Of a DNA stretch of 20,418 nucleotides, positions 4,375-19,566 are shown one piece after another. Position 1 is the stretch's first letter; each line of letters begins with the position of its first letter. Position numbers and translations under genes: made by a program. The DNA is from a virus: positions 1 to 20,418 of the IMG/VR virus record IMGVR_UViG_3300024358_000310; one strand, given 5' to 3'. The notes beneath the pieces are model-generated. The model was not told the DNA's origin, did no database searches, and was given only the letters and a program-made list of their open reading frames with translations.

Positions 4375-5271
4375 TTATTTTTGATCTTCTGCTAGCACGT
4401 CATACATTTCAAATACGCCGCCGTTGCGCTCATAAATTAAACCTGCATATAGATCTGCTTTCATGCCTTCGCCTAGTTTGGCTTTAGCAACACGCTCTGC
4501 CCATGTAAACAATGCTTTGTCTACAGGATCGATCTGTTGTTGACCACCACTTTCTTGAACTAGCTTAACCATGTCTTTGAAAGATAGTTTTGTTTCGACT
4601 GATTCTGCAACTACTTTCTTAGAAGTTTTTACAGACTCATTCTTTTTACCAAAATACTTTTCTTGTTTAGCACTCATGCCTTTCTTGCCATCTTTCTTGT
4701 CACCGCCTTTTTCGGCAGCAGCTTTTTTCATTGGCTCTTTCTTGTCACCGTCTTTGTCAACGTCTAAGAAATCTGGCTTAGCACCTTCGTCCATTTTCTT
4801 TTCTTTCTTGGCTTTTTTATCTTCTTTATCAGACTTCTTAGCCTCAACCATCTTTAGGAATTTGGATTTAAATTGATCAGGATCAATAGATTCTTTTTTG
4901 GCTTTCTTTGGTTTGCCGCCTTTGTTTGCCGGAGCATCTGTATCATCGTCATCTTTAGGCTCTTCGCTACCACCATACGCTGATGTAGATTTGTGAACTA
5001 AACCAGTTTTAGTTTTAGTAGCAACACCTTTCGATGTAGTTTTCTTGTCGCCTGGTTTCGCATCAGCATCGAATACTTCGTCTACTTTCTTTTCTTCTTT
5101 CTTTTCTTCGGCTTTTTTCTTAGCTTCTGAGATATAAGAAGAAGTTCCTGCTAGAACACGTAGTTGAGCATCTTCGTTAAGCTGAACTGCTTTTGGTAAT
5201 TCTGGAGCTGGGATAACTTCAATTTTGTCATCCATCGAGCTAATTTTTGTAATTAATGATTTAAAGTCCAT
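4375..5271 (-). CDS. Lys/Glu-rich mosaic protein with EF-hand-like loop, probable virion-associated
   Basis: This 298-residue protein is mostly low-complexity and very rich in Lys, Glu and Asp (about residues 50-225), flanked by two ordered-looking ends. An early piece LNEDAQLRVLAGTSSYISEA (31-50) and a C-terminal domain (about 226-298) containing DLYAGLIYERNGGVFEMYDV look familiar from marine T4-like phage proteins of unknown role. Residues 167-181 hold PDFLDVDKDGDKKEP, an EF-hand-like DxDxDG loop also common in such proteins. I see no catalytic motif. High charge, low complexity and a YISE site after which a prohead protease could cut would suit a scaffold or capsid-internal protein; that is inference. 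A late promoter octamer (5298-5305) lies upstream, and a strong terminator follows. Confidence 0.75.
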   Translation of the reverse strand: MDFKSLITKISSMDDKIEVIPAPELPKAVQLNEDAQLRVLAGTSSYISEAKKKAEEKKEEKKVDEVFDADAKPGDKKTTSKGVATKTKTGLVHKSTSAYGGSEEPKDDDDTDAPANKGGKPKKAKKESIDPDQFKSKFLKMVEAKKSDKEDKKAKKEKKMDEGAKPDFLDVDKDGDKKEPMKKAAAEKGGDKKDGKKGMSAKQEKYFGKKNESVKTSKKVVAESVETKLSFKDMVKLVQESGGQQQIDPVDKALFTWAERVAKAKLGEGMKADLYAGLIYERNGGVFEMYDVLAEDQK

Positions 5272-5297: not shown

Positions 5298-5305
5298 TAT
5301 TTATC
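5298..5305 (-). promoter_or_regulatory. T4-type late promoter upstream of the 298-residue gene
   Basis: GATAAATA on the minus strand (5305-5298) matches the late octamer TATAAATA in seven of eight positions. It overlaps the stop codon of the preceding gene. Initiation about six bases on gives a leader of some 20 bases with AGGA copies before the ATG at 5271. Confidence 0.55.
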
Positions 5306-5555
5306 TCTTGACTGCTGAGCCGCCAAACAAGCTAACGCCTGTATCCAGAGCATTTCTAGCAGTTCCGTCGGAATTTTTTGGTTGAGAAACTTTGGGCTGA
5401 GGAGGCGCTTTAGTGCCGCTTTTACCAGGTGATCCTGTATAGCTCTTTTTTCCACGAGCTTTTCCTGGGCTTATATGCGGGCTAGCAACGGTAGCGATAT
5501 TACCTGCCGATGTAGCACCAGCTGTAGCTGTTTCAAATATTTCTCTTATTTTCAT
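5301..5555 (-). CDS. Small basic Gly/Ser/Ala-rich protein, probable virion-associated
   Basis: This 84-residue protein begins MKIREIFETATAGATSAGNI and continues with a Gly-, Lys-, Pro- and Ser-rich stretch (SPGKARGKKSYTGSPGKSGT). From memory this signature, including ATAGATSAG and the final SLFGG, recurs in small proteins of marine T4-like phages with no known function. It looks disordered and basic, so it could bind nucleic acid inside the capsid. The start MKIREIFE has the leader shared by neighbours (Glu at position 5, then hydrophobic-aromatic), and I-F-E at 6-8 fits a T4 prohead protease site. There is almost no Shine-Dalgarno sequence; a late promoter octamer lies only seven bases from the ATG, so late mRNA may be nearly leaderless. 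Confidence 0.75.
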   Translation of the reverse strand: MKIREIFETATAGATSAGNIATVASPHISPGKARGKKSYTGSPGKSGTKAPPQPKVSQPKNSDGTARNALDTGVSLFGGSAVKR

Positions 5556-5562
5556 AGTATAA

Positions 5563-5570
5563 TATTTATT
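5563..5570 (-). promoter_or_regulatory. T4-type late promoter upstream of the 84-residue gene
   Basis: AATAAATA (5570-5563, minus strand) matches seven of eight bases of the late octamer. It overlaps the upstream gene's stop codon. A start six bases downstream falls near 5557, two bases before the ATG. Confidence 0.5.
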
Positions 5571-6087
5571 TCTTTCTACCGCTCTTCATATTAGCGCACC
5601 AGTGAGCCATACGTGCTTTTTCACCTGAACTGTTCTTGGCAGTTTTGCGCAACGAGCTAACACTAGCTTTGCAATTTACACCGCTGCGTTTAGCTAGACC
5701 CTTACGCCCTGGCTTTTTGCCGTCAGCAAAGTTTTCAACATTATATGTGGGGTCTGTTTTTTGACGTTTCATTCCCTTAGGTTGATTAGGATCAACCGGA
5801 TCGATATCTGTAGTTGTAAGCCCTAATTTTTCTAAATTTTTAAGATATTCATGTTCTTCTTCTTCGCTACCAAAACTAACAATAGTGCTAGGTGGTCCTT
5901 TACCGAAATCGTGTTTACCTAACCCTTTTAGATCACTGATATGCTGACCAAGTTTATACCAGTCATACACATCAGAAACATCAACTCTAACTGTTCCTTT
6001 AGGCATGGTTGGTTTTGTTTCAGGACCCCTGGGTTTTTCGTTAGGGTGCTGGTCTTCGATTTTTCTAATAAATTCTCTAGCTCTCAT
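5566..6087 (-). CDS. Two-module conserved unknown protein, probable virion-associated
   Basis: This 173-residue protein is built of two modules. Residues about 30-95 contain VDVSDVYDWYKLGQHISDL and GKGPPSTIVSFGSEEEE, and the C-terminal 55 residues contain GRKGLAKRSGVNCKASVSS and then GEKARMAHWCANMKSGRKK, a basic domain. Both modules recall conserved pieces of marine T4-like phage proteins that are found in different combinations; neither has an assigned function. The basic tail suggests DNA contact. The N-terminus MRAREFIRKIE carries the Glu-5 leader shared in this cluster. Its ATG overlaps the stop of the HAD-GH19 gene by four bases (ATGA) with only a weak ribosome site, so it depends on coupling. 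The late promoter of the next gene overlaps its stop codon. Confidence 0.78.
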   Translation of the reverse strand: MRAREFIRKIEDQHPNEKPRGPETKPTMPKGTVRVDVSDVYDWYKLGQHISDLKGLGKHDFGKGPPSTIVSFGSEEEEHEYLKNLEKLGLTTTDIDPVDPNQPKGMKRQKTDPTYNVENFADGKKPGRKGLAKRSGVNCKASVSSLRKTAKNSSGEKARMAHWCANMKSGRKK

Positions 6088-7430
6088 TTCATAGCCACCA
6101 TAAATTTGTCATGCTTTTCTTTTCGTTGGTCTATATGTTTCATTCCAGGGTTGATAGGTTTAGTTACAGATTTTGTATCTTTAAAACTGTCAACTTTATC
6201 TCGAACACGTTCCTTCCAATACCACACAGCGACCTTGGCTGCTATTTCTGGACGTTCGACCAATTCGGGTTTTTCAACTAAAGGCAAACCCAAGGCTTGT
6301 CCAGCACGTTTGTAGTTATCTTTTCCAGTGAGCTGTATGTATCCACGTCCTTTGTATTTTGCACCGTCTCCGGGCTTGGTGTTGCCTAGTATCTTTGCTT
6401 TACGTGGAGCAAACTTAATATCATATTTTTTGAAATCTAATGAACCACCGATCTCTTTCATGTGCTTGAAATCTAATGTTTCGTGAGCGCATTGTGCTAG
6501 AAAGGCTGCAAGCTCGCTGCCTTTTATTCCTGCCTTCTCTGCTTCTTTTTTTAGAAATACTTCGTGCGGGTTACCGGTTACAGATTTAGCAATATCTTTT
6601 TTTGATACTTGTTGGATAACATCGGTAGATTTTTTCTTAGCAGCTTCTGCGTCTCCGGCACCACCGAATGCCAGTGCTGTCCCTAATGCTCCGGCAGCGG
6701 CCCAATCTTTCCATCCTTCGCCGACTCCGCCGTCACCACCCCCATCTCCGCTATAGCCAGTAGCGTAACCGTAGGCGCCGTAAGGGCCCGGTCCATATGC
6801 AGCCCAACGAGCACTTTTACGTCTGCGTTTCTTTTCAGAAACAATTCCCTCTCTCATATATTCAGATGCATCGCCTTCTGGGCTGACATGCCAGGCATAG
6901 AATTTAGTTTTAGGATGGTCTTTCTTAAGTTCTATAAATGTATGTAGATTAGGTTTTGCATCGTCATACATTATAGCTTTGGTATAATCATCTTTATCAA
7001 GTAATGTTTTGATTATAGATTTTTTACGTTCTTCGGTAGTTCCCTGTTTGCTATTACCTGCACGATAGACATGCACTTTGTCAACGTCTACTCCATACTT
7101 ACGGAATGTATCTAGAAATAATTCTTTATCATCAAAGTCTGCACGAGCAGTGACCATTACCACTTTGTTGCCTGTGGCGATATCCTGTTTGAGTTGTCGC
7201 ATCATAGGAATGATAGGCTTGGACTTTTCAAAAAACTCACGGGCATTGCGAAAATCTTCAAAATCAAAACTTTCACCTGGTTGCAGTTTATAATGTGTAA
7301 AGTCATGACTGTTTAAACTTTTGATAACACGGCCGTCTTTGATCACATGAACTTTGGTCTGTGTATTGACCAATGTATCGTCAATATCAAAGACCACCAG
7401 TTTCTTTGGTTCAAACTCATGTGCTCTCAT
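6084..7430 (-). CDS. Fusion of HAD phosphatase and GH19 lysozyme/chitinase-like domain
   Basis: Read from ATG 7430, this is 448 residues. Residues 10-190 form a HAD-family phosphatase: motif I VFDIDDTL (D15 nucleophile, D17), motif II VMVTARAD (T94), motif III lysine in the KKSIIK region and motif IV IMYDDAKPN (D156, D157). Next come a basic patch (KKRRRK), a Gly/Tyr-rich linker (205-236), then EGWKDW and a hydrophobic Ala/Gly segment ending GDAEAAKKK (238-266), which looks like an internal signal peptide or membrane anchor. Residues 275-448 are a GH19-like muralytic domain with AAFLAQCAHET (E317 likely catalytic) and GRGYIQLTGKDNY. Substrate of the phosphatase is unknown. A longer frame up to 7508 would begin with TTG; I chose 7430 because MRAHEF matches the leader of neighbours. 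Its start overlaps a small secreted ORF by 14 bases. A virion-carried enzyme is plausible. Confidence 0.85.
   Translation of the reverse strand: MRAHEFEPKKLVVFDIDDTLVNTQTKVHVIKDGRVIKSLNSHDFTHYKLQPGESFDFEDFRNAREFFEKSKPIIPMMRQLKQDIATGNKVVMVTARADFDDKELFLDTFRKYGVDVDKVHVYRAGNSKQGTTEERKKSIIKTLLDKDDYTKAIMYDDAKPNLHTFIELKKDHPKTKFYAWHVSPEGDASEYMREGIVSEKKRRRKSARWAAYGPGPYGAYGYATGYSGDGGGDGGVGEGWKDWAAAGALGTALAFGGAGDAEAAKKKSTDVIQQVSKKDIAKSVTGNPHEVFLKKEAEKAGIKGSELAAFLAQCAHETLDFKHMKEIGGSLDFKKYDIKFAPRKAKILGNTKPGDGAKYKGRGYIQLTGKDNYKRAGQALGLPLVEKPELVERPEIAAKVAVWYWKERVRDKVDSFKDTKSVTKPINPGMKHIDQRKEKHDKFMVAMK
6479..6509. repeat. 31-bp direct repeat, copy 1 (GH19 catalytic region)
   Basis: A 31-base block is identical here and at 18133-18163. 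It encodes AAFLAQCAHE on the minus strand around the catalytic glutamate of both GH19 domains. Identity extends over third codon positions, unlike the rest of the two domains, so it suggests recent exchange or a recombination point. Confidence 0.85.
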
Positions 7431-7626: not shown

Positions 7627-7842
7627 TCATACAGGCTTCTCTCCAGTTAGATAAGGTTTACTGAACCATAGTTTAAACCATTCTGGTGTTCCTGGTTTAA
7701 TATCATGTTTTTTCATAAGCTCACCTTTTTCATTCCCGGTAACACTTATATTGCTACCGTCAAACGGATTTACAGGATCGTATTTTACATATCCTTTAAA
7801 TTCATTAATACCGGCAAGACGTTTTAATTCAGATATTTCCAT
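7627..7842 (-). CDS. Small conserved unknown with LAGINE leader, probable virion-associated
   Basis: This 71-residue protein starts MEISELKRLAGINEF, a leader of the type [KR]LAGI-x-E that I recall at the start of many small marine T4-like phage proteins, followed by a C-terminal module with ISVTGNEKGELMKKHDIKPG and GTPEWFKLWFSKPYLTGEKP. I-N-E at residues 12-14 would suit cleavage by a T4-type prohead protease. It has Glu-5 like its neighbours. The start overlaps the stop of the upstream gene by one base (TAATG) and has no clear Shine-Dalgarno sequence, so translation is probably coupled. No function can be assigned. Confidence 0.72.
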   Translation of the reverse strand: MEISELKRLAGINEFKGYVKYDPVNPFDGSNISVTGNEKGELMKKHDIKPGTPEWFKLWFSKPYLTGEKPV

Positions 7843-8273
7843 TAGTCAGTAGCCGGTTCGCCTGTAATAGAAACTTCCCATTTCTTTCCGGTCGCTTCAG
7901 ATTTTTTACGAGCCCAATCTTTTAATTGATAGTAGTGTGCTCTTTCACGCTCGTCATCTGCATAATAACCGCGGCCTTTGAATACCTTCCACTTCTTACC
8001 GTTGATATAGATAGCGAAATTGTTTGGCGGTTCGGTGTTGCCCTCGTCCCAATCTTCTGGATCTCTGCGTCTGCCACTACCACTCCACCCGGGCTTATGA
8101 CTTGCGCCACCATACCAATGAGCTGCTTCATCCATAGGTTTACCTTTATGTTTAACATCGCCCTGTTTTTCGGCCTTCTTCTTATCTTTGTGCGGGCCAG
8201 CACCTGCAGTCTTTTGATTCTTGGCTACAAAGTTTCTTGGCTTACTTGCTGGTATAAATTCTTTTGCTTTCAT
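7842..8273 (-). CDS. Two-module conserved unknown, probable virion-associated
   Basis: This 143-residue protein has a basic N-terminal module (residues 1-50, with KNQKTAGAGPHKDKKKAEKQ and GDVKHK) and a C-terminal module (about 85-143) with FAIYINGKKWKVFKGRGYYA and TGKKWEVSITGEPATD. Both are familiar from mosaic proteins of marine T4-like phages, the second often as a terminal domain after other partners. The middle is Gly/Arg/Asp-rich and probably disordered. The leader MKAKEFIPAS has Glu-5 followed by Phe-Ile. The ATG overlaps the nucleotidyltransferase stop by four bases (ATGA) and has AAGGA seven bases upstream. Function unknown; nothing suggests an enzyme. Confidence 0.77.
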   Translation of the reverse strand: MKAKEFIPASKPRNFVAKNQKTAGAGPHKDKKKAEKQGDVKHKGKPMDEAAHWYGGASHKPGWSGSGRRRDPEDWDEGNTEPPNNFAIYINGKKWKVFKGRGYYADDERERAHYYQLKDWARKKSEATGKKWEVSITGEPATD

Positions 8274-9514
8274 TTTGATTTCCTTGACTGCTTAGGACCT
8301 TTCCTTGTTTTCCACTTCTTATCAGTTGAACACCAGTAACGCCCGTAGCCTTCTTTAACTTCTTTCTTTTTAGGATAACCATGTCTTATATCTAATTGAT
8401 ATCCTTGTAACCCTTGTTTAGATAATACTCCACTGATAAATTCTTCTGCTTCTCGAGCAGTGGCAAATTTATCACCTAAATTATATTTTCTTACTTCGCC
8501 GTCGATTTTTACATAAGCAATAGTAATAGGTTTGACTGGTTCTTCTGAGGCCTGTGCCGGACTTGCTAATAAATTAGCAGCAGCTAAAGCTGCGCCTGCT
8601 ACTTTGCTTTTCCAACCTTCTTCAACGCTATCGATCATTGGATCAATACCGCGACTTCGGATTCCACCTTTTCTTCTTACTTTAGCAAGTTCTTCTAAGG
8701 CGTGTCGAATCTGCTCCATATTCATCTTTAATTCTTCAAATTGGCGAGTCATTGTTTGCCACTCTGCAGGACTAGCCTTGTCGACACGAGCAGCAAGGTC
8801 TTTTATCTGTCCCGCAGCTCGCATCATACGATATTTTAATTTTGCAGGATTAGCTTTGTCATGACTGTGAATCATCGGATCCATAGGGTCTGTAGGATCC
8901 ATTTCAATAGGAGCTTCAGAAATGCTTTCTGCAATCTTCATGCCTTTACGCACAGCAGCAAACAAGGGTTTAGCAAGTTCTCCTGCACCTGTGGCTTCTT
9001 TAAATGCTTCAAAATCATTGTTGGCAGCAGCAGCTCTAGCACCACTGGCACTCACTCCAGCAACACCTTCAGCACCATCTTCACGCTCTCCGCTACTTAC
9101 AAAATCTAAAACTTCAAACTTATAGAAACCGTGTGCCTTACCTTCAACACCGTTGTATGCTTCGAGAAGTTTTTTCATATCATCTAAACGATCACTACCA
9201 GCTACAAAGGTCGCTGCGTTATAACCTTGATCGTGTAGATATGATGCTACTTTAACAACTGTGTTTAGACTGGGATCGTCCACTACATTTCCTGCATATT
9301 CGGGAAACATTTCTTTAATGAACTTTATTTTTGTTCCGTAATCTAAAGGATTCTTTTTAGCGTCTTGACTTTGGCTAACGAATATTCTCATATCGCCGCC
9401 TTGAGACTTCATCGTATCTAAAACTTGTTTGTGCCCGATGGTAGGAGGATTCATTCTACCAAAGCAGAATGTTACGTGTTTGCTACCAGCTTCAAACAAT
9501 TCGGTTAAAAACAT
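8270..9514 (-). CDS. Nucleotidyltransferase fused to helical and signal-like segments
   Basis: The first 195 of 414 residues form a cytidylyltransferase-like nucleotidyltransferase: FCFGRMNPPTIGHKQ (residues 16-30, the NPPT-x-GH nucleotide-binding loop) and VSASGARAA (154-162, in place of the ISSTxxR motif). Such enzymes move a nucleotide to a phosphorylated substrate, as in NMN adenylyltransferase; the substrate here is not visible. Then come ESISEAP (196-202), a long helical part (about 222-282), EGWKSK and a hydrophobic Ala-rich segment ending SPAQASEE (299-324), which resembles an internal signal peptide, a small domain (about 328-380), and a basic tail with GRYWCSTDKKWK. The leader MFLTELFEA closely resembles the start of T4 Alt (MELITELFDE), a capsid-packaged enzyme, so packaging in the virion is plausible. 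The start overlaps the upstream stop by one base. Confidence 0.85.
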   Translation of the reverse strand: MFLTELFEAGSKHVTFCFGRMNPPTIGHKQVLDTMKSQGGDMRIFVSQSQDAKKNPLDYGTKIKFIKEMFPEYAGNVVDDPSLNTVVKVASYLHDQGYNAATFVAGSDRLDDMKKLLEAYNGVEGKAHGFYKFEVLDFVSSGEREDGAEGVAGVSASGARAAAANNDFEAFKEATGAGELAKPLFAAVRKGMKIAESISEAPIEMDPTDPMDPMIHSHDKANPAKLKYRMMRAAGQIKDLAARVDKASPAEWQTMTRQFEELKMNMEQIRHALEELAKVRRKGGIRSRGIDPMIDSVEEGWKSKVAGAALAAANLLASPAQASEEPVKPITIAYVKIDGEVRKYNLGDKFATAREAEEFISGVLSKQGLQGYQLDIRHGYPKKKEVKEGYGRYWCSTDKKWKTRKGPKQSRKSK

Positions 9515-9849
9515 TACTTGTAATCGCCTTTCTCAATATGTCTTGATTGTTCTTCTGCAAAGCGTTTTGCAAGGTCAATTAGTTTTTCTTTAGGAAATTT
9601 TTCTTCTCTATCTTGGATGTCAAACATTTTACAGTAATGATTTAAACAATTTTCAATTGGTCTAATATAAACTTTAAAAACATTAGGATTTCCCTTGTGT
9701 TCTTTATGACGATCAACAGCTGGGAAAAAATAACGATTCAACATTTGATCATCGTTGTCTATAAAAAATTTTAAATCATCTAACCAATCAATTTCTTGAT
9801 CGTCTTCTTTAGGTGCGCCAATCGGCGAAAACATTTCTTTTAAAAGCAT
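9514..9849 (-). CDS. Conserved unknown protein with MLLKEMFSPIG leader
   Basis: The frame is open to 9885, but the start is set at ATG 9849: it overlaps the upstream stop as TAATG and has GGAG six bases before it. The 111-residue product begins MLLKEMFSPIGAPKED and contains WLDDLKFFIDNDDQMLNRYF, then FFPAVDRHKEHKGN and a C-terminal helix with LAKRFAEEQSRHIEKGDY. It looks mostly helical and soluble. I recall close relatives in many marine T4-like phages, all without known function. It shares Glu-5 plus hydrophobic-aromatic with its neighbours, and sits in the same string of one-base-overlapping genes, so stoichiometric co-translation with the nucleotidyltransferase is likely. Confidence 0.8.
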   Translation of the reverse strand: MLLKEMFSPIGAPKEDDQEIDWLDDLKFFIDNDDQMLNRYFFPAVDRHKEHKGNPNVFKVYIRPIENCLNHYCKMFDIQDREEKFPKEKLIDLAKRFAEEQSRHIEKGDYK

Positions 9850-10808
9850 TACCAGCTCCTGCAAGACCAGTAACGTGCTTTCCAACGTGGACCTGGGTTT
9901 TTACAATTATGTCTAGCACGGAAAGATTTTCTACGTGCCGGATTAGATTTCTTAATACGCATTTTCTTATCGCCAAAGTTTACTTTGACAATCTTACCGT
10001 TAGGCTTACGGACATAGACTTTTGATTTTTTTACATCACCTGGTAACTTTTTACCAAGCGGAACTTCTTTGCCGTGATATTTTGCTTCTGTTGTTTGAAC
10101 ATCTTCGGCATACTTATTAGCTTTCATATAGTCTCTAACGGTATCGATATAATCAACAGCCTTAGTAATTTTAGCCTGAACCCATTCTGGTAGATTTTCG
10201 TCAGCATCTAAAATAGCATATAATTCTTTGGCAGCATCATCGATGGTTCTAAGATCGTCTTTGGCCATATCACCTTCACGATCGTATTCACCGTAGTTTA
10301 CAGGATCCTTGGGATCTTCTGGTCCATGATCTTCCATCTTGACACAGTTATCTACACGCTTGCCACCTTTCATTTTAGTGCCCATTCGCTTGTAACCCTT
10401 CCAGCAGGCTTTGCCATCTAGACCTTTTTGTTTTTCCTCACGAATAACTTCACCGTCTAAGAATACCAAACCTTCTTTGGCTAACATATCAAGTGCTATG
10501 TCATCTAAGTCGATAACAATACCATCTTCTAAAATGTCAGTGATTTCTGTAGCGATTTCAAAATCTTCTGAAAAACTAATACCAAAGTCATCACCGATTT
10601 CGAATTCTTCAGCAAAGCCTTTGGCTTTAGCTTCTTTTTCTAAATCTGTTTTACGTTGGACAATAGCTTGACTGATTTCTGGGTCCTTAGAAGCTACAGG
10701 ATCCATTTGTAGATCTTGCAGAGCTTTGCGCTTGGCATCTAAATCGTCTTTGTCTCTAAGGGCTGTTTCGCTAACGATTGCGTCTAATTTTGATAAAAGG
10801 TCTCTCAT
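9849..10808 (-). CDS. Three-module mosaic protein, probable virion-associated
   Basis: This 319-residue protein has an acidic helical N-terminal part (1-125) and three modules that recur in marine T4-like phages. Residues 130-158 hold GKACWKGYKRMGTKMKGGKR. Residues 174-230 hold YDREGDMAKDDLRTIDDAA and LPEWVQAKITKAVDYID, a helical domain. Residues 243-319 hold KIVKVNFGDKKMRIKKSNPA and end SFRARHNC...YWSCRSW, a basic domain with H300, C302 and C316 that might bind metal. No catalytic motif is seen. IVSE at 11-14 fits a possible prohead protease site. Expression can come from read-through or from a late promoter (10833-10840), and a hairpin (10807-10833) covers the ribosome site GAGG and the start codon. 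It heads the nine-gene mosaic block. Confidence 0.8.
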   Translation of the reverse strand: MRDLLSKLDAIVSETALRDKDDLDAKRKALQDLQMDPVASKDPEISQAIVQRKTDLEKEAKAKGFAEEFEIGDDFGISFSEDFEIATEITDILEDGIVIDLDDIALDMLAKEGLVFLDGEVIREEKQKGLDGKACWKGYKRMGTKMKGGKRVDNCVKMEDHGPEDPKDPVNYGEYDREGDMAKDDLRTIDDAAKELYAILDADENLPEWVQAKITKAVDYIDTVRDYMKANKYAEDVQTTEAKYHGKEVPLGKKLPGDVKKSKVYVRKPNGKIVKVNFGDKKMRIKKSNPARRKSFRARHNCKNPGPRWKARYWSCRSW

Positions 10809-10833
10809 AGTATTCCTCGTGAGGTAATACTAT
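10807..10833 (-). promoter_or_regulatory. RNA hairpin hiding the ribosome site of the 319-residue gene
   Basis: On the minus strand ATAGTATT (10833-10826) pairs with AATACTAT (10814-10807), and after one bulged base CCT (10824-10822) pairs with AGG (10817-10815), loop CACG. The ribosome site GAGG (10818-10815) and the first two bases of the ATG (10808-10806) are inside the structure. Late mRNA is predicted to start near 10827, which would remove most of the left arm. Confidence 0.65.
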
Positions 10834-10840
10834 ATTTATC
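10833..10840 (-). promoter_or_regulatory. T4-type late promoter upstream of the mosaic block
   Basis: GATAAATA (10840-10833, minus strand) matches seven of eight bases of the T4 late octamer. It lies in the 44-base gap before the gene at 10808, 24 bases from the ATG. Confidence 0.65.
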
Positions 10841-11203: not shown

Positions 11204-11878
11204 TTATTTATCGGAAATTACGTAATTATAAATTCGACCCACTACTGACGAATTTCTAAGTTTTAACATCAATAGTGTAGGCTCGTCCTCGACTAAAATG
11301 TATCTACGATCCCAGTTCCAATCAGTGTGCATGAACCACTTAATTACAGTATCAGTTAATCTTATCTTGGAATTTTGTGTTTTCATCCAATTGATGAACT
11401 TTTCTTTTTCTTCCGTGTCGCCTGCTAGTTTATGAGGTAATAGATAGACTCTAAACTGATATTTGTTATGCGGCAACTTTTTGCCCACAATAACTTGAGG
11501 CTGATCTAATATATTAGAATTAACATCAGGTTCAAAGCGGAGGTTAACAAAGTCTTTATATTGATTAGAGATATCATTATAGAATTTTGAATCGTTAGTA
11601 TAAAAGTCTATATTAGAATTTTCTATTCTTTTTGACCATATACTAGGATCATAGTTAAGCAAGAACTTCGATAGTTCTGCTATTTGTTCTTTGTTATGAA
11701 ATACCTTTGTTTCAATAGAATGACGATAGCTGTTTCCGCCGCATTTATCACAATAACGTTCAACTTCAGACAAAGGAACCGTTCGGAATACTGCGGCTCC
11801 TTTGATTTCTAAAGAAACTTTGTAGCACCACTTGTTATAAAATTTTCTAGTGGTCTGTTTAGCTTTGAACTGTTTCAT
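11204..11878 (-). CDS. Unknown 224-residue protein with possible zinc site
   Basis: I do not recognise this family. The protein is basic and rich in aromatic residues and Asn. Residues 41-61 contain C43-x2-C46, H53 and H61, which could hold one zinc ion. The rest shows mixed helices and strands, with WFMHTDWNWDRRYILVED and a final strand region SVVGRIYNYVI. No signal peptide, membrane segment or known catalytic motif is visible. Its ATG lies 20 bases inside the end of clpA with a poor ribosome site, so it is probably translated by coupling. Position after dnaJ, def and clpA and before the structural block leaves its role open: nucleic acid binding, an anti-host function or a clpA partner are all only possibilities. 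Confidence 0.75.
   Translation of the reverse strand: MKQFKAKQTTRKFYNKWCYKVSLEIKGAAVFRTVPLSEVERYCDKCGGNSYRHSIETKVFHNKEQIAELSKFLLNYDPSIWSKRIENSNIDFYTNDSKFYNDISNQYKDFVNLRFEPDVNSNILDQPQVIVGKKLPHNKYQFRVYLLPHKLAGDTEEKEKFINWMKTQNSKIRLTDTVIKWFMHTDWNWDRRYILVEDEPTLLMLKLRNSSVVGRIYNYVISDK
11205..11212 (-). promoter_or_regulatory. Possible late promoter before the 115-residue gene
   Basis: GATAAATA (11212-11205, minus strand) matches the late octamer but also encodes the last codons and stop of the upstream gene, and its predicted start falls inside the next ATG. It may be chance, or serve genes further on. Confidence 0.3.
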
Positions 11879-15810: not shown

Positions 15811-16320
15811 TTATAGTTCGGGTTGATCAGGCTGCACTGGCATTGGCTTACCTGTGCTGCTCATTGCTGGAGCCGCTGGCGTCGGCTTAGGTGCGCTTCC
15901 AAAGCTGCTTCCGCCAAAGCTACTTGGGGTGCTTGGTGCTCCGAAACTTGGCGTAGCTGGTGCGCCGAAACTGCTCGGTGCTGCTGGAGCAGGGCTAAAT
16001 GTTGAAGGGCTGCTTGCTGGTGTAGATAGTCCGCCATTGTTTGCTCCATTTAGTTTTTCTTGTGTGCGACCAAATGCCGCGATACCTAATACCGCACCCA
16101 TTGCGATATGGAATAAACCAGCACCTTGTAAGGTTAGTGGATTCCATTGTGTAATAGGACTATGTGTTAGAGTTTGTAACAAACTCCATAAGATTGGAAA
16201 TATGACCATGTCCATCATGCAGACAACCATATACATCCAACCCATCATTGGACGCCATTTAGCATTCATCCAATCTTCTTTTTTCTTTTCACTATCGCTC
16301 ATCGTTGTGTGATCTGTCAT
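15811..16320 (-). CDS. Holin candidate with Pro/Ser/Phe-Gly-rich tail
   Basis: Residues 20-90 have the plan of a phage holin: KWRPMMGWMYMVV leading into a membrane segment (27-49), then a second (66-83) in LTLQGAGLFHIAMGAVLGIA, with a charged exit FGRTQEK. The WRP-x-MGW start is a feature I recall from holins of other phages with two or three membrane spans. A holin makes the timed membrane lesion that lets the endolysin out; the gene lies in the same unit as an endolysin and spanin candidates, which supports this. The last 80 residues are low-complexity Ala/Pro/Ser/Gly with repeated SFG or FGAP units (SSFGAP, PSFGAP, SSFGGSSFGSAP), unusual for a holin. AAAGGAG lies six bases before the ATG. 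Confidence 0.62.
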   Translation of the reverse strand: MTDHTTMSDSEKKKEDWMNAKWRPMMGWMYMVVCMMDMVIFPILWSLLQTLTHSPITQWNPLTLQGAGLFHIAMGAVLGIAAFGRTQEKLNGANNGGLSTPASSPSTFSPAPAAPSSFGAPATPSFGAPSTPSSFGGSSFGSAPKPTPAAPAMSSTGKPMPVQPDQPEL

Positions 16321-16340
16321 TAGTCGCTCCTTTATCTAAA

Positions 16341-16907
16341 TTAAAACCAAAGGAAGATTCCGTTGGCTGATAATACTAATCCTACGCCTGCTACTGCAAA
16401 GCTACTCCAAAACATTGGCATACTGACTGCAAGGATACTTGCGGAAAGCACAACAATGGCTAACTGATACGCGGTAGAAGCATAACCGATCCATGGACTA
16501 GATTTCTTGGCTAGTTCACGATCTGCTTCCATCTTACGTGCATTAACAGCGATCTCTTTCTTATCGCTGTCCATGCGTTCTGCTTCTGCCTTAAATTCTG
16601 CCTTTAGTTTAGGATCACTAGTTGTCTTTGATGCGATTTCATAACTAACTAAACGATTATTTTTTGCTTGGTATTGTGCCCAAGCATTGTTAGCACCTAA
16701 TGTATTGTTTAATACTGTGCTGGATAGTTTCCCACCATACCAACTGTTTACTGCTAGGAACAACGCGAATACGGAAATAACCATACCTGCTTTGTCTTTG
16801 ATCTTTGCTTCACGCTCACTTCGGCTACCCGGTGCTGGCTTTGGTGCATCGGGATCTTTTGCGTCCTTTGTGAACATTTTTAAAACTGTGTCTACTACGT
16901 TAGCCAT
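16341..16907 (-). CDS. DUF4337-like membrane protein
   Basis: The frame is open to 16922, but ATG 16907 has GGAG five bases upstream and is chosen; the longer form would start with TTG inside that ribosome site. The 188-residue protein has membrane segments at about 41-55, 141-162 and 166-187 and a helical, charged middle (75-135) that probably lies on one side of the membrane. The stretch with NAWAQYQAKNNR recalls the W-x-YQAK signature of DUF4337 membrane proteins, whose function is unknown. It sits between the lipoprotein and the holin candidate in the lysis unit. It might regulate the holin or be an antiholin, but this is only from position. Confidence 0.75.
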   Translation of the reverse strand: MANVVDTVLKMFTKDAKDPDAPKPAPGSRSEREAKIKDKAGMVISVFALFLAVNSWYGGKLSSTVLNNTLGANNAWAQYQAKNNRLVSYEIASKTTSDPKLKAEFKAEAERMDSDKKEIAVNARKMEADRELAKKSSPWIGYASTAYQLAIVVLSASILAVSMPMFWSSFAVAGVGLVLSANGIFLWF

Positions 16908-16927
16908 CTGCGCTCCTTTCAAAAAAA

Positions 16928-17197
16928 TTATTTCACGCTGTCAAAATTTTGTTTTTGGTCGTTATACCATTTAATCCACGCATCTACTTTTACACGACAT
17001 TCATAGTAGGTGCTGTAATTTACTACAACTACATCAAGCAATTTGCTTAATTCTTGTGTTTCTTTTGCTGCTTCTTTTAATTCAGGACAAGCCTGCATGA
17101 TTTCCGGAATCGCTTCTGGAAAGTTTCTTTTAACTGGAGCTGTTCCTAGGCATCCAGTTAACAGCAAGGCAGGAATTAGTAAGAGAATACTTTTCAT
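16928..17197 (-). CDS. Lipoprotein, candidate outer-membrane spanin
   Basis: This 89-residue protein begins MKSILLLIPALLLTGC, a lipoprotein signal with lipobox LTGC, so Cys16 should be lipidated. The mature 74 residues contain two more Cys (in MQACPEL and YYECRVK) and end WIKWYNDQKQNFDSVK. I recall related lipoproteins next to membrane-anchored coiled-coil proteins in marine T4-like phages. Its start overlaps the stop of the coiled-coil gene by four bases (ATGA), with AGGAG seven bases before the ATG. That pair, beside an endolysin, is the usual layout of a two-part spanin, which fuses inner and outer membranes at lysis. The mature part is not Pro-rich like many Rz1 proteins, so the assignment is mainly contextual. 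Confidence 0.75.
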   Translation of the reverse strand: MKSILLLIPALLLTGCLGTAPVKRNFPEAIPEIMQACPELKEAAKETQELSKLLDVVVVNYSTYYECRVKVDAWIKWYNDQKQNFDSVK

Positions 17198-17664
17198 TTT
17201 GATTCTCCTGGCTTAGCATTTTTAGCCGCAGCATTATGTAAGTCTATAGCCTCAGGAGCAACTTTACATTCTTTATCAATAATCTTTTCGACTTCTTTGA
17301 TTTTTTCTTGTATCACATATTGTGTGTCTTTTACAGTTTTAACTTTGTCTACATAGACTTTTTGAATCACTGTATTGATTTGTGGTGCTCGTTCTTCTGA
17401 TTTTTTAATTTTTTCTTCAAGTTCTGCCACCTTGGCACGCCACTCCATCTCAACACCGTAACCACCTTTGAGATAGATACCAGCTACTAAAAGGACTGCG
17501 CTGATTACTTGTAATATCAAGTAGTAGGGAGAAAGTGCTGGGAACCAGCGCAGAATTCTGTGTAAGACAAAAAAGAATAAAAAGGAACCAACCGCACCTG
17601 CGATTAAGATAGCATTGATAACATAGATAAGAAAACTATCTGGTATAAATGCTAACATCCACAT
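17194..17664 (-). CDS. Membrane-anchored coiled-coil protein, candidate inner-membrane spanin
   Basis: The 156 residues hold two membrane segments (about 10-35 and 47-65) and then a long charged helix likely to form a coiled coil (75-131, with VAELEEKIKKSEERA and EKIKEVEKIID), ending CKVAPEAIDLHNAAAKN. A classical Rz spanin has one N-terminal membrane segment; two here are unusual but would put the coiled coil in the periplasm if the N-terminus is outside. The single Cys133 near the end could form an intermolecular disulfide. It follows the endolysin with a one-base gap and overlaps the lipoprotein gene by four bases, which supports a spanin pair. Confidence in the gene is high; the spanin role is inferred. 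Confidence 0.78.
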   Translation of the reverse strand: MWMLAFIPDSFLIYVINAILIAGAVGSFLFFFVLHRILRWFPALSPYYLILQVISAVLLVAGIYLKGGYGVEMEWRAKVAELEEKIKKSEERAPQINTVIQKVYVDKVKTVKDTQYVIQEKIKEVEKIIDKECKVAPEAIDLHNAAAKNAKPGESK

Positions 17665-17665
17665 T

Positions 17666-18295
17666 TTAGGCTACTCCAAAAATATGTAAAGCGTGATTGT
17701 AATGCTTGATACGATCTTCTAATCCAATAGTTCCGCCATTGATTCTTTTAGTCAATGTTAGGATGTCTCCCTTGTCAGCCCATTGGTTTAGTTTATTTTG
17801 TTCCCAGAAGAAACAAGCAGATTGCACAGCACCTTCGAATGTTTCTAGATATTCGCTGGCTTCTTCTATAGGAATGTCTAAACTTGCTGCAAAGAATGTA
17901 TAGTTGTCTTTACCAGTTAATTGAATCAATCCACGACCACAATAACGGTATCCGTCTCCGCTGTCTTCATCACCGTTGCCCATACGATTCGCATAGACTC
18001 TGTTTGCGATCATTTGTGGCTTGTTGGCGTATTGTGCTGCGATATTATCGTCTGGAAAATACTTAGGAAATACCTTGCGCAGACTTGCTGCTTTATAATT
18101 TAAGTTTTCTTTTAAGAAAATGAATCCACCACTTTCGTGAGCGCATTGTGCTAGAAAGGCTGCTACACGTTGTGGAGTATTGATTTCATATTCCGGAAGT
18201 ATTTCTGAAAGAGCACTATACCAATGATCTACATATGGATTCTTTGGAATCATGTCTTTTAATTGTGCTTTGGTAAAATCAAATGTAAAACTCAT
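17666..18295 (-). CDS. GH19 endolysin (chitinase-fold lysozyme)
   Basis: This 209-residue single-domain protein has GH19 family landmarks: AAFLAQCAHESGGF (46-59, E54 likely catalytic), NLNYKAASLRKVFPKYF, the YCGRGLIQLTGKDNY block, and TKRINGG near the end. Phage GH19 enzymes of this size cut peptidoglycan at lysis. There is no signal peptide or membrane segment, so it needs a holin to leave the cytoplasm. It is followed by the spanin candidates and the holin candidate. AAGGA lies seven bases upstream of the ATG. It shares a 31-base identical block with the GH19 domain of the HAD fusion gene, so the two lysozyme-like domains have a common origin or have exchanged DNA. The first 40 residues give a helical region not seen in the fusion protein. 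Confidence 0.93.
   Translation of the reverse strand: MSFTFDFTKAQLKDMIPKNPYVDHWYSALSEILPEYEINTPQRVAAFLAQCAHESGGFIFLKENLNYKAASLRKVFPKYFPDDNIAAQYANKPQMIANRVYANRMGNGDEDSGDGYRYCGRGLIQLTGKDNYTFFAASLDIPIEEASEYLETFEGAVQSACFFWEQNKLNQWADKGDILTLTKRINGGTIGLEDRIKHYNHALHIFGVA
18133..18163. repeat. 31-bp direct repeat, copy 2 (GH19 catalytic region)
   Basis: Identical to 6479-6509 over 31 bases, in the same orientation, encoding AAFLAQCAHE in the endolysin. Confidence 0.85.
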
Positions 18296-19558: not shown

Positions 19559-19566
19559 TATTTATC
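19559..19566 (-). promoter_or_regulatory. T4-type late promoter of the lysis unit
   Basis: GATAAATA (19566-19559, minus strand) matches seven of eight bases of the late octamer. A start about six bases on (near 19553) leaves a leader of about ten bases carrying GGGAG before the ATG at 19543, a typical late leader. Confidence 0.65.

Follow-up and report, generated by a model that had tools for sequence, protein, structure and literature searches.

Internal head proteins of phage T4 carry a targeting sequence of 10–19 residues that is taken off by the prohead protease gp21 after L/I-x-E (PMC9026906, PMC5694885), the motif at which gp21 is known to cleave (PMC9026906). Head proteins of the SPN3US/phiKZ type have prohead-protease propeptides, are cut after x-x-E, and are ejected; no polyprotein is mentioned among them in PMC5694885, and a "signal peptide" is not mentioned in the SPN3US papers that we found. 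The predicted cargo proteins described here, which are encoded in a window of 20,418 nucleotides (the whole stretch of DNA that was analyzed, IMGVR_UViG_3300024358_000310) and in its relatives, resemble the SPN3US/phiKZ type in the predicted cut and ejection, and T4 IPI, IPII, IPIII, and Alt (PMC9026906) in a short common N-terminal sequence (EF[IV]xE) and in late expression. They are also comparable to the T4 internal head proteins in the S77 prohead protease of the relatives, in the occurrence of small basic proteins beside enzymes, and in their presumed ejection into the cytoplasm. Unlike the T4 proteins, they combine several proteins per chain with internal protease sites and reshuffled modules, and some of the pieces start with Sec or Tat signals.

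Phage lysozymes with N-terminal signals that use the host export route are known as secreted or SAR endolysins, and T7 gp16 is an ejected transglycosylase whose packaged wall-cutting domain acts during ejection as a component of a tunnel. The lysozyme of the window would share with gp16, which has no signal peptide, a packaged wall-cutting domain that is delivered at infection. It differs from secreted and SAR endolysins in that its signal lies within the chain and could operate only once the prohead cut has been made, so that export would occur in the next host. With GH19 phage endolysins, such as that of SPN1S (4ok7), it has in common the fold, Pfam and PHROG endolysin matches, and a glutamate spacing of 9, whereas its position outside the lysis cassette, its internal signal, and its targeting start are different. 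We estimate a probability of roughly 70% that the corresponding gene product, P0001, is a packaged head-cargo polyprotein that is cut in the prohead and thereby exposes Sec or Tat signals used in the next host. No such prohead-protease-exposed signal peptide was found in the open-licence papers searched. The gene has the following parts (arrows mark predicted cuts):

6084..7430, minus strand: predicted HAD–linker–signal–GH19 cargo polyprotein gene (P0001), 448 aa, ATG at 7430, stop at 6084
7410..7430, minus strand: capsid-targeting-like N-terminus MRAHEFE, residues 1–7, a start common to neighbors and 317 proteins of relatives
6861..7409, minus strand: HAD phosphatase module, residues 8–190, with DIDDT, VTAR, and YDDAKPN and a PHROG match
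6834..6842, minus strand: predicted prohead-protease site V-S-E199↓K200, from P3 conservation in relatives
6717..6833, minus strand: basic and Gly/Tyr (AAYGPGPYGAYGY) linker module, residues 200–238, moving as a unit among relatives, pLDDT <50
6717..6725, minus strand: predicted prohead-protease site V-G-E238↓G239, with P3 conserved in 39/39 distinct relatives
6642..6716, minus strand: putative hidden Sec-type signal peptide GWKDWAAAGALGTALAFGGAGDAEA, residues 239–263, with AxA, exchanged with Tat signals in relatives
6087..6641, minus strand: predicted mature exported part with the GH19 lysozyme-like domain (Pfam 303–412; E317, E326)

The start at 7430 is backed by relatives that begin with MRAHEI, MRASEI, or MRFRDI. 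The initial annotation had placed a HAD phosphatase and a GH19 domain on one chain, and both were recovered. The HAD motifs are found at residues 15–19 (DIDDT), 93–96 (VTAR), and 155–161 (YDDAKPN); a consensus built from 34 relatives retains DxDxT, T, and the acidic motif IV, and a PHROGs profile of a polynucleotide-kinase-type HAD matches residues 5–168 (E 1.2e-12). This part is similar to 3'-phosphatases of the PNK type; at a guess, it would suit the repair of nucleic acids at an early stage of infection. Pfam GH19 (PF00182) matches residues 303–412 (E 2.6e-14, 54 bits vs a cut-off of 25.5), the PHROGs endolysin profile covers residues 293–442, and E317 and E326 are in place as catalytic-type glutamates. 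AlphaFold predicts two folded domains and gives a pLDDT <50 for residues 194–269 between them; the best fold matches of the model are 7r6s (a putative phage protein of Stenotrophomonas), the SPN1S endolysin, and other GH19 structures. The basic patch, the Gly/Tyr linker, and the hydrophobic Ala/Gly segment described initially were all seen, the latter terminating in DAEA↓A with the suggested signal-peptidase-like AEA site, and the proposed boundary at residue 238 is exactly the glutamate that precedes GWKDW. Three more contigs carry P0001 at 100% identity, and the full-length domain order also occurs in other contigs at 64–72% identity; because of these whole-length copies, an assembly error or chimera as the origin of the fusion is excluded.

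The genes around P0001 and the lysis genes of the window are arranged as follows:

4375..5271, minus strand: cargo-like protein MDFKSLITK.., final gene of the run
5301..5555, minus strand: predicted small cargo protein, 84 aa, MKIREIFE↓TATAGATSAGNIATV, whose N-terminus copies the predicted protease site of the major capsid protein and the beginning of its expected mature form
5566..6087, minus strand: predicted cargo protein MRAREFI.. with DVYDWYKLG and NFADGK modules, which are fused to HAD or GH19 elsewhere
7627..7842, minus strand: cargo-like protein MEISELKRLAGINE.., similar to IRRLAGLKV, the C-terminus of the gp22-like scaffold
7842..8273, minus strand: predicted cargo protein MKAKEFIPA.. 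with a DUF7230-like module
8270..9514, minus strand: second predicted cargo polyprotein, with a nucleotidyltransferase-like part, a helical region, a hidden signal, and a small domain
8549..8617, minus strand: second putative hidden signal, VEE299↓GWKSKVAGAALAAANLLASPAQA, in the nucleotidyltransferase-like chain
9849..10808, minus strand: predicted cargo protein MRDLLSKLD.., whose L183 counterpart has a signal-bearing insert
10833..10840, minus strand: T4-type late promoter box GATAAATA upstream of the cargo operon
5298-5305, 11205-11212, and 19559-19566, minus strand: further GATAAATA late boxes
15811-18295, minus strand: apparent lysis cassette with a GH19 endolysin, an Rz-like and Rz1-like lipoprotein pair, a DUF4337 membrane protein, and a further membrane protein
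17666..18295, minus strand: separate GH19 endolysin (paralogue) of the lysis cassette, with neither targeting sequence nor signal

What had been taken for a virion block is more accurately an operon that resembles those of internal head proteins and lies next to DNA polymerase and sliding clamp genes. P0001 does not have the position of an end-of-cycle lysis gene, as it lies in the cargo operon and the lysis cassette, outside of which it had correctly been placed, has a GH19 endolysin of its own. The late box stands ahead of the cargo operon in the window and in 4/4 large contigs; in these four contigs, 47 of its 54 occurrences are located at most 70 nt upstream of an ORF, large tail genes included. 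The predicted exported domain of the 8270-9514 chain is a small beta-alpha-beta fold.

The window operon contains unrelated neighbors with a common short N-terminal sequence (MRAHEF, MRAREF(I), MKAKEF(I), MFLTELFE, MKIREIFE, and MRDLLSKL), and 317 proteins in relatives match this capsid-targeting-like pattern. At the protein-start sites of these phages, P3 is I (40), V (29), or L (5). P0001 itself lacks a canonical [LIV]xE cut at MRAHEFE↓P, and most relatives have a clean EF[IV]xE. The module joints have the form [V/I/L/T]xE, similar to the motif of T4 gp21, with V and T at P3 going beyond the published L/I-x-E. At the VSE199 joint, which resembles the cut of the targeting sequence EF[VI]TE↓KK, V, I, or L occupies P3 in 11 of 12 distinct relatives and M in the other. 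At the signal joint (VGE238 type), P3 is V, I, L, or T in 39/39 distinct, phylogenetically not independent cases (V 21, I 8, L 6, T 4), compared to a background of 20%. The joints QHPNE (1/6) and RVRDPEDWDE (7/21) fit poorly. When the edges of BLAST matches were used for all module borders, [ILVMT]xE was found within four residues in 26% vs 16%, a modest enrichment in a relaxed and noisy test, and therefore defined joints were used instead.

S77 prohead protease genes (PF03420) were detected in 7/7 carrier contigs >180 kb and in two of 110–135 kb; the window is a 20-kb fragment without this gene. The capsid precursors have L-x-E↓S/N at the predicted cut, namely YLSE↓SATAGATSAGNVATL in G001 and YLAE↓SATAGATQAGN, YLKE↓NASAGSTSSGN, and LLAE↓SSVGTTTAGN in jumbo carriers. 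Near gp20–gp21, we also observed head-cluster proteins MRLNEFITEDKELAE↓GPLMNKIGSAVGKAVG (G003:128036-129145 and counterparts), in which a targeting-like start precedes a repetitive segment of the amphipathic or Ala/Gly type and which are perhaps a further class of internal proteins.

For the segment that follows VGE238, a hidden signal peptide is the best reading. With its positive n-region, hydrophobic core, and AxA at 18–30 (GWKDW-core-DAEA↓A), it has the features of a Sec signal. Among 42 non-redundant matches of the E↓GWK/DISRR type, 3 in tail-type or other large proteins were regarded as chance and 39 were kept. AxA is present in 34 of these 39 distinct signals, which likewise are not phylogenetically independent, and shuffling of the 42 gave a mean of 21 and a maximum of 29. 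Candidate export segments include the Sec-type GWKDWAAAGALGTALAFGGAGDAEAA and a DISRRGFLKG..ANA type in L207. Sec-type and Tat-type segments are interchangeable in this slot: one and the same downstream domain (..PDIVAHVTFKVDGK..) is preceded by GWKSKIAGAALAGAAALGGGGAYA↓Q, GWDDVKKFGKKAAVAGAIGLGALGSAQA↓Q, or the twin-arginine segments DISRRGFLRGIGAAAAGIGAASTAQA↓Q and DISRRSFLRGAGALATGAALGATGANA↓Q.

The Tat cases in relatives have the SRRxFLK motif, a hydrophobic core, and an AxA site. Pfam TAT_signal matched 11/11 Tat cases tested, three of them above the cut-off (24.5, 24.6, and 23.5 vs 22.7 bits) and the others below it (17.0 to 22.3 bits), and the matches begin at P1' of the predicted cut or one to two residues off. 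When 2.9 million viral contigs were scanned with a DNA pattern for DISRRGFLKG that did not include the glutamate as a requirement, 11 contigs were returned. Ten of these, T4-like and jumbo contigs of up to 524 kb, have the motif directly behind [VIL]xE (in one case after one residue), and the eleventh (L288) has an ordinary N-terminal signal, MDITRRGFLKG. As encoded, the Tat signals are not N-terminal; most are internal at residues 48–389, and two follow a leader of merely 8–9 residues (MRLEEILE↓DISRRGFLKG..AQA↓K and MRIHEIINE↓DISRRGFLKG..AYA↓K). An N-terminal position would thus be reached only upon the prohead-protease cut, and the same would hold for the hydrophobic segment of P0001, which could serve as an N-terminal signal only after cleavage of the preceding joint. 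Internal translation starts that yield a separate signal-bearing protein were rejected, because the V of VxE is mostly encoded by GTT, GTA, or GTC and no in-frame start is conserved near the segment.

Internal signal-anchors are normal for Sec/SRP and the P0001 segment is hydrophobic, so that the uncut protein could in principle be a type II membrane protein of the producing cell, with a cytoplasmic HAD, a periplasmic GH19 domain, and a role in lysis or superinfection exclusion without packaging. We regard this as unlikely: when preceded by a folded domain of 200 residues, the Tat signals that occupy the same slot would not be expected to anchor the chain internally, and the cores reach only a moderate hydrophobicity (Kyte-Doolittle mean over 12 residues of about 1.0–2.1). 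Nor would this reading account for a start of the capsid-targeting type, for the joint at [VILT]xE, or for Ala-x-Ala. It also appears improbable that the protein is packaged and cut in the head and the segment serves as a membrane-active helix or assembly element instead of an export signal. Ala/Gly-rich hydrophobic helices are known in injected proteins of other phages, and a GH19 branch (L009, L011-L013, and L214), in which the segment ends with AAYDAYK and lacks AxA, would suit such a role. However, the segment exchanges with canonical twin-arginine signals that are matched by Pfam TAT_signal, the great majority of the segments do have AxA, and the cargo downstream is of the envelope type.

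What the initial annotation had missed is that the modules occur in about 15 shuffled orders, of which the fusion is one, and that the joints match the prohead-protease motif; the HAD and GH19 halves are for this reason probably not kept on one chain. Our search for relatives of P0001 in 2.9 million viral contigs gave 80 loci. The approximately 15 arrangements, which belong to T4-like and jumbo phages, all start with what appears to be a T4-like capsid-targeting sequence (MRAxEF..). The loci fall into three groups, in which the whole order is kept, HAD or the linker is followed by other C-terminal modules, or the match comprises only the part from residue 234–239 onward. In the latter, large group, the EGWKDW segment and GH19 are preceded by a different N-terminal part, such as the linker on its own, an NT5C-type HAD (PF06941), an NFADGK, CWKGY, or DVYDWYKLG module, or a leader of 14 residues. 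In L059, for example, the signal–GH19 unit directly follows a targeting sequence of 14 aa (MRAAEFITPQELEE↓GWKDWVAG). A tree of 39 distinct signal–GH19 units required at least 21 changes of upstream architecture, and even the near-identical sisters L080 and L081 are unlike in this respect. The signal and domain of the nucleotidyltransferase chain of the window were also found behind DUF7230 (L202:7170-7604), and a related unit is inserted at an E↓AKYHG joint of the MRDLLSKLD protein in L183. The signal and its downstream cargo thus move together.

In cultured phages, signal-bearing modules had no match outside GH19, with the reservation that the low-complexity filter of BLAST may hide Ala/Gly segments, and no relative was found in the bacterial genomes searched. 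The GH19 protein of S-B68 was also considered and set aside; it is a long protein of a structural-gene region and has no capsid-targeting start.

The free change of module order and the cleavable-looking joints also speak against a packaged chain that remains uncut and works from the capsid or tail during entry, where GH19 would open the wall for the DNA. Virion lysozymes for entry are common, and the related GH19 domain of S-B68 is in agreement with such a role, but head cargo exits via the tail into the cytoplasm, and we consider this explanation very improbable. Since the segment reads as a signal for passage from the cytoplasm to the periplasm, export out of the cytoplasm following ejection is more likely than the initially proposed action of the lysozyme on the wall at entry. 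Finally, modules clearly recombine often, but that the signals are functionless debris of genes fused by chance into cargo genes is hardly credible, as even divergent copies retain P3, P1, RR/GWK, and AxA, and the Sec and Tat forms substitute for each other.

Our preferred reading of P0001 as prohead-cut cargo starts from what can be read directly in the genomes, i.e., the module shuffling, the joint consensus, the Sec/Tat interchange, the protease genes, and the late promoters. P0001 would be synthesized late in the cytoplasm, and the MRAHEF-type N-terminus would bring it into the prohead core, a task that falls to the capsid-targeting sequence in IPI-III and Alt of T4. A gp21-type protease would then cleave behind [V/I/L/T]xE, in P0001 after VSE199 and VGE238, to produce the HAD phosphatase, a basic Gly/Tyr peptide, and the GH19 protein. 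Core targeting and cutting are transferred here from the knowledge on T4, and we infer the following steps at a further remove. In the uncut chain, the signal would be buried and the enzyme retained in the cytoplasm, whereas the new N-terminus of the freed GH19 protein, GWKDWAAAG...DAEA↓A, could function as a Sec signal peptide. After ejection, the phosphatase would be active in the cytoplasm of the next host, and the GH19 part would be exported by Sec (by Tat in the twin-arginine relatives), released by signal peptidase, and directed to the peptidoglycan. A packaged precursor with a cytoplasmic phosphatase half and an exported lysozyme half, one of the initial suggestions, is indirectly supported. 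That the lysozyme cuts peptidoglycan early in infection is a guess; as the benefit of such cutting, we weakly favor superinfection exclusion or a pre-loading of lysis.

The cargo sorts in a corresponding manner. Upstream of the hidden signals, it is mostly cytosolic (HAD phosphatases, NT5C, nucleotidyltransferases, DUF7230), and downstream it is of the envelope type (GH19, LysM+GH19 in L079 and L180, TonB C-terminal, M48). In L282 (IMGVR_UViG_3300047121_000173), a hidden Tat signal is followed by a TonB C-terminal domain (62.6 bits vs 22) that may act in the periplasm as a decoy for TonB or Tol, and in L287 and L280 (IMGVR_UViG_3300028392_001569 and IMGVR_UViG_3300027749_002876), by an M48-type metallopeptidase as jumbo-phage cargo. 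A chain of 796 aa with a hidden Tat signal (L017:5480-7870) has a zeta-toxin-type P-loop kinase further downstream, behind a second predicted cut (SLEE↓GVND), and a chain of 1133 aa (G003, the L034 contig, 205354-208755) consists of a long N-terminal region, a nucleotidyltransferase-like part, and an EGWKSK signal module. A ligase identity of the latter, suggested by resemblance by eye, had no Pfam support and was dropped.

Taken as a whole, a two-compartment delivery code of tailed phages is a probable interpretation, according to which some prohead-cut cargo remains cytoplasmic and other pieces become new substrates of Sec or Tat. As a timer, the capsid protease would hold envelope effectors (lysozyme, LysM, a TonB-like domain, a metallopeptidase) inert in the producing cell, with export only in the next. 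If this is true, phages supply ready-made proteins not only to the cytoplasm but also to the periplasm of the recipient by means of protease-gated signal peptides, which would explain how a lysozyme can be synthesized in bulk and packaged without early killing of the producing cell, and would suggest a role in superinfection exclusion for the cargo with TonB-like and LysM domains. The sequence rule of [VIL]xE followed by GWK.. or DISRRxFLK.. could then be used to find injected envelope effectors in any phage genome, and the joint rule would provide a route to predicting mature cargo boundaries in many "hypothetical proteins" of T4-like and jumbo phages.
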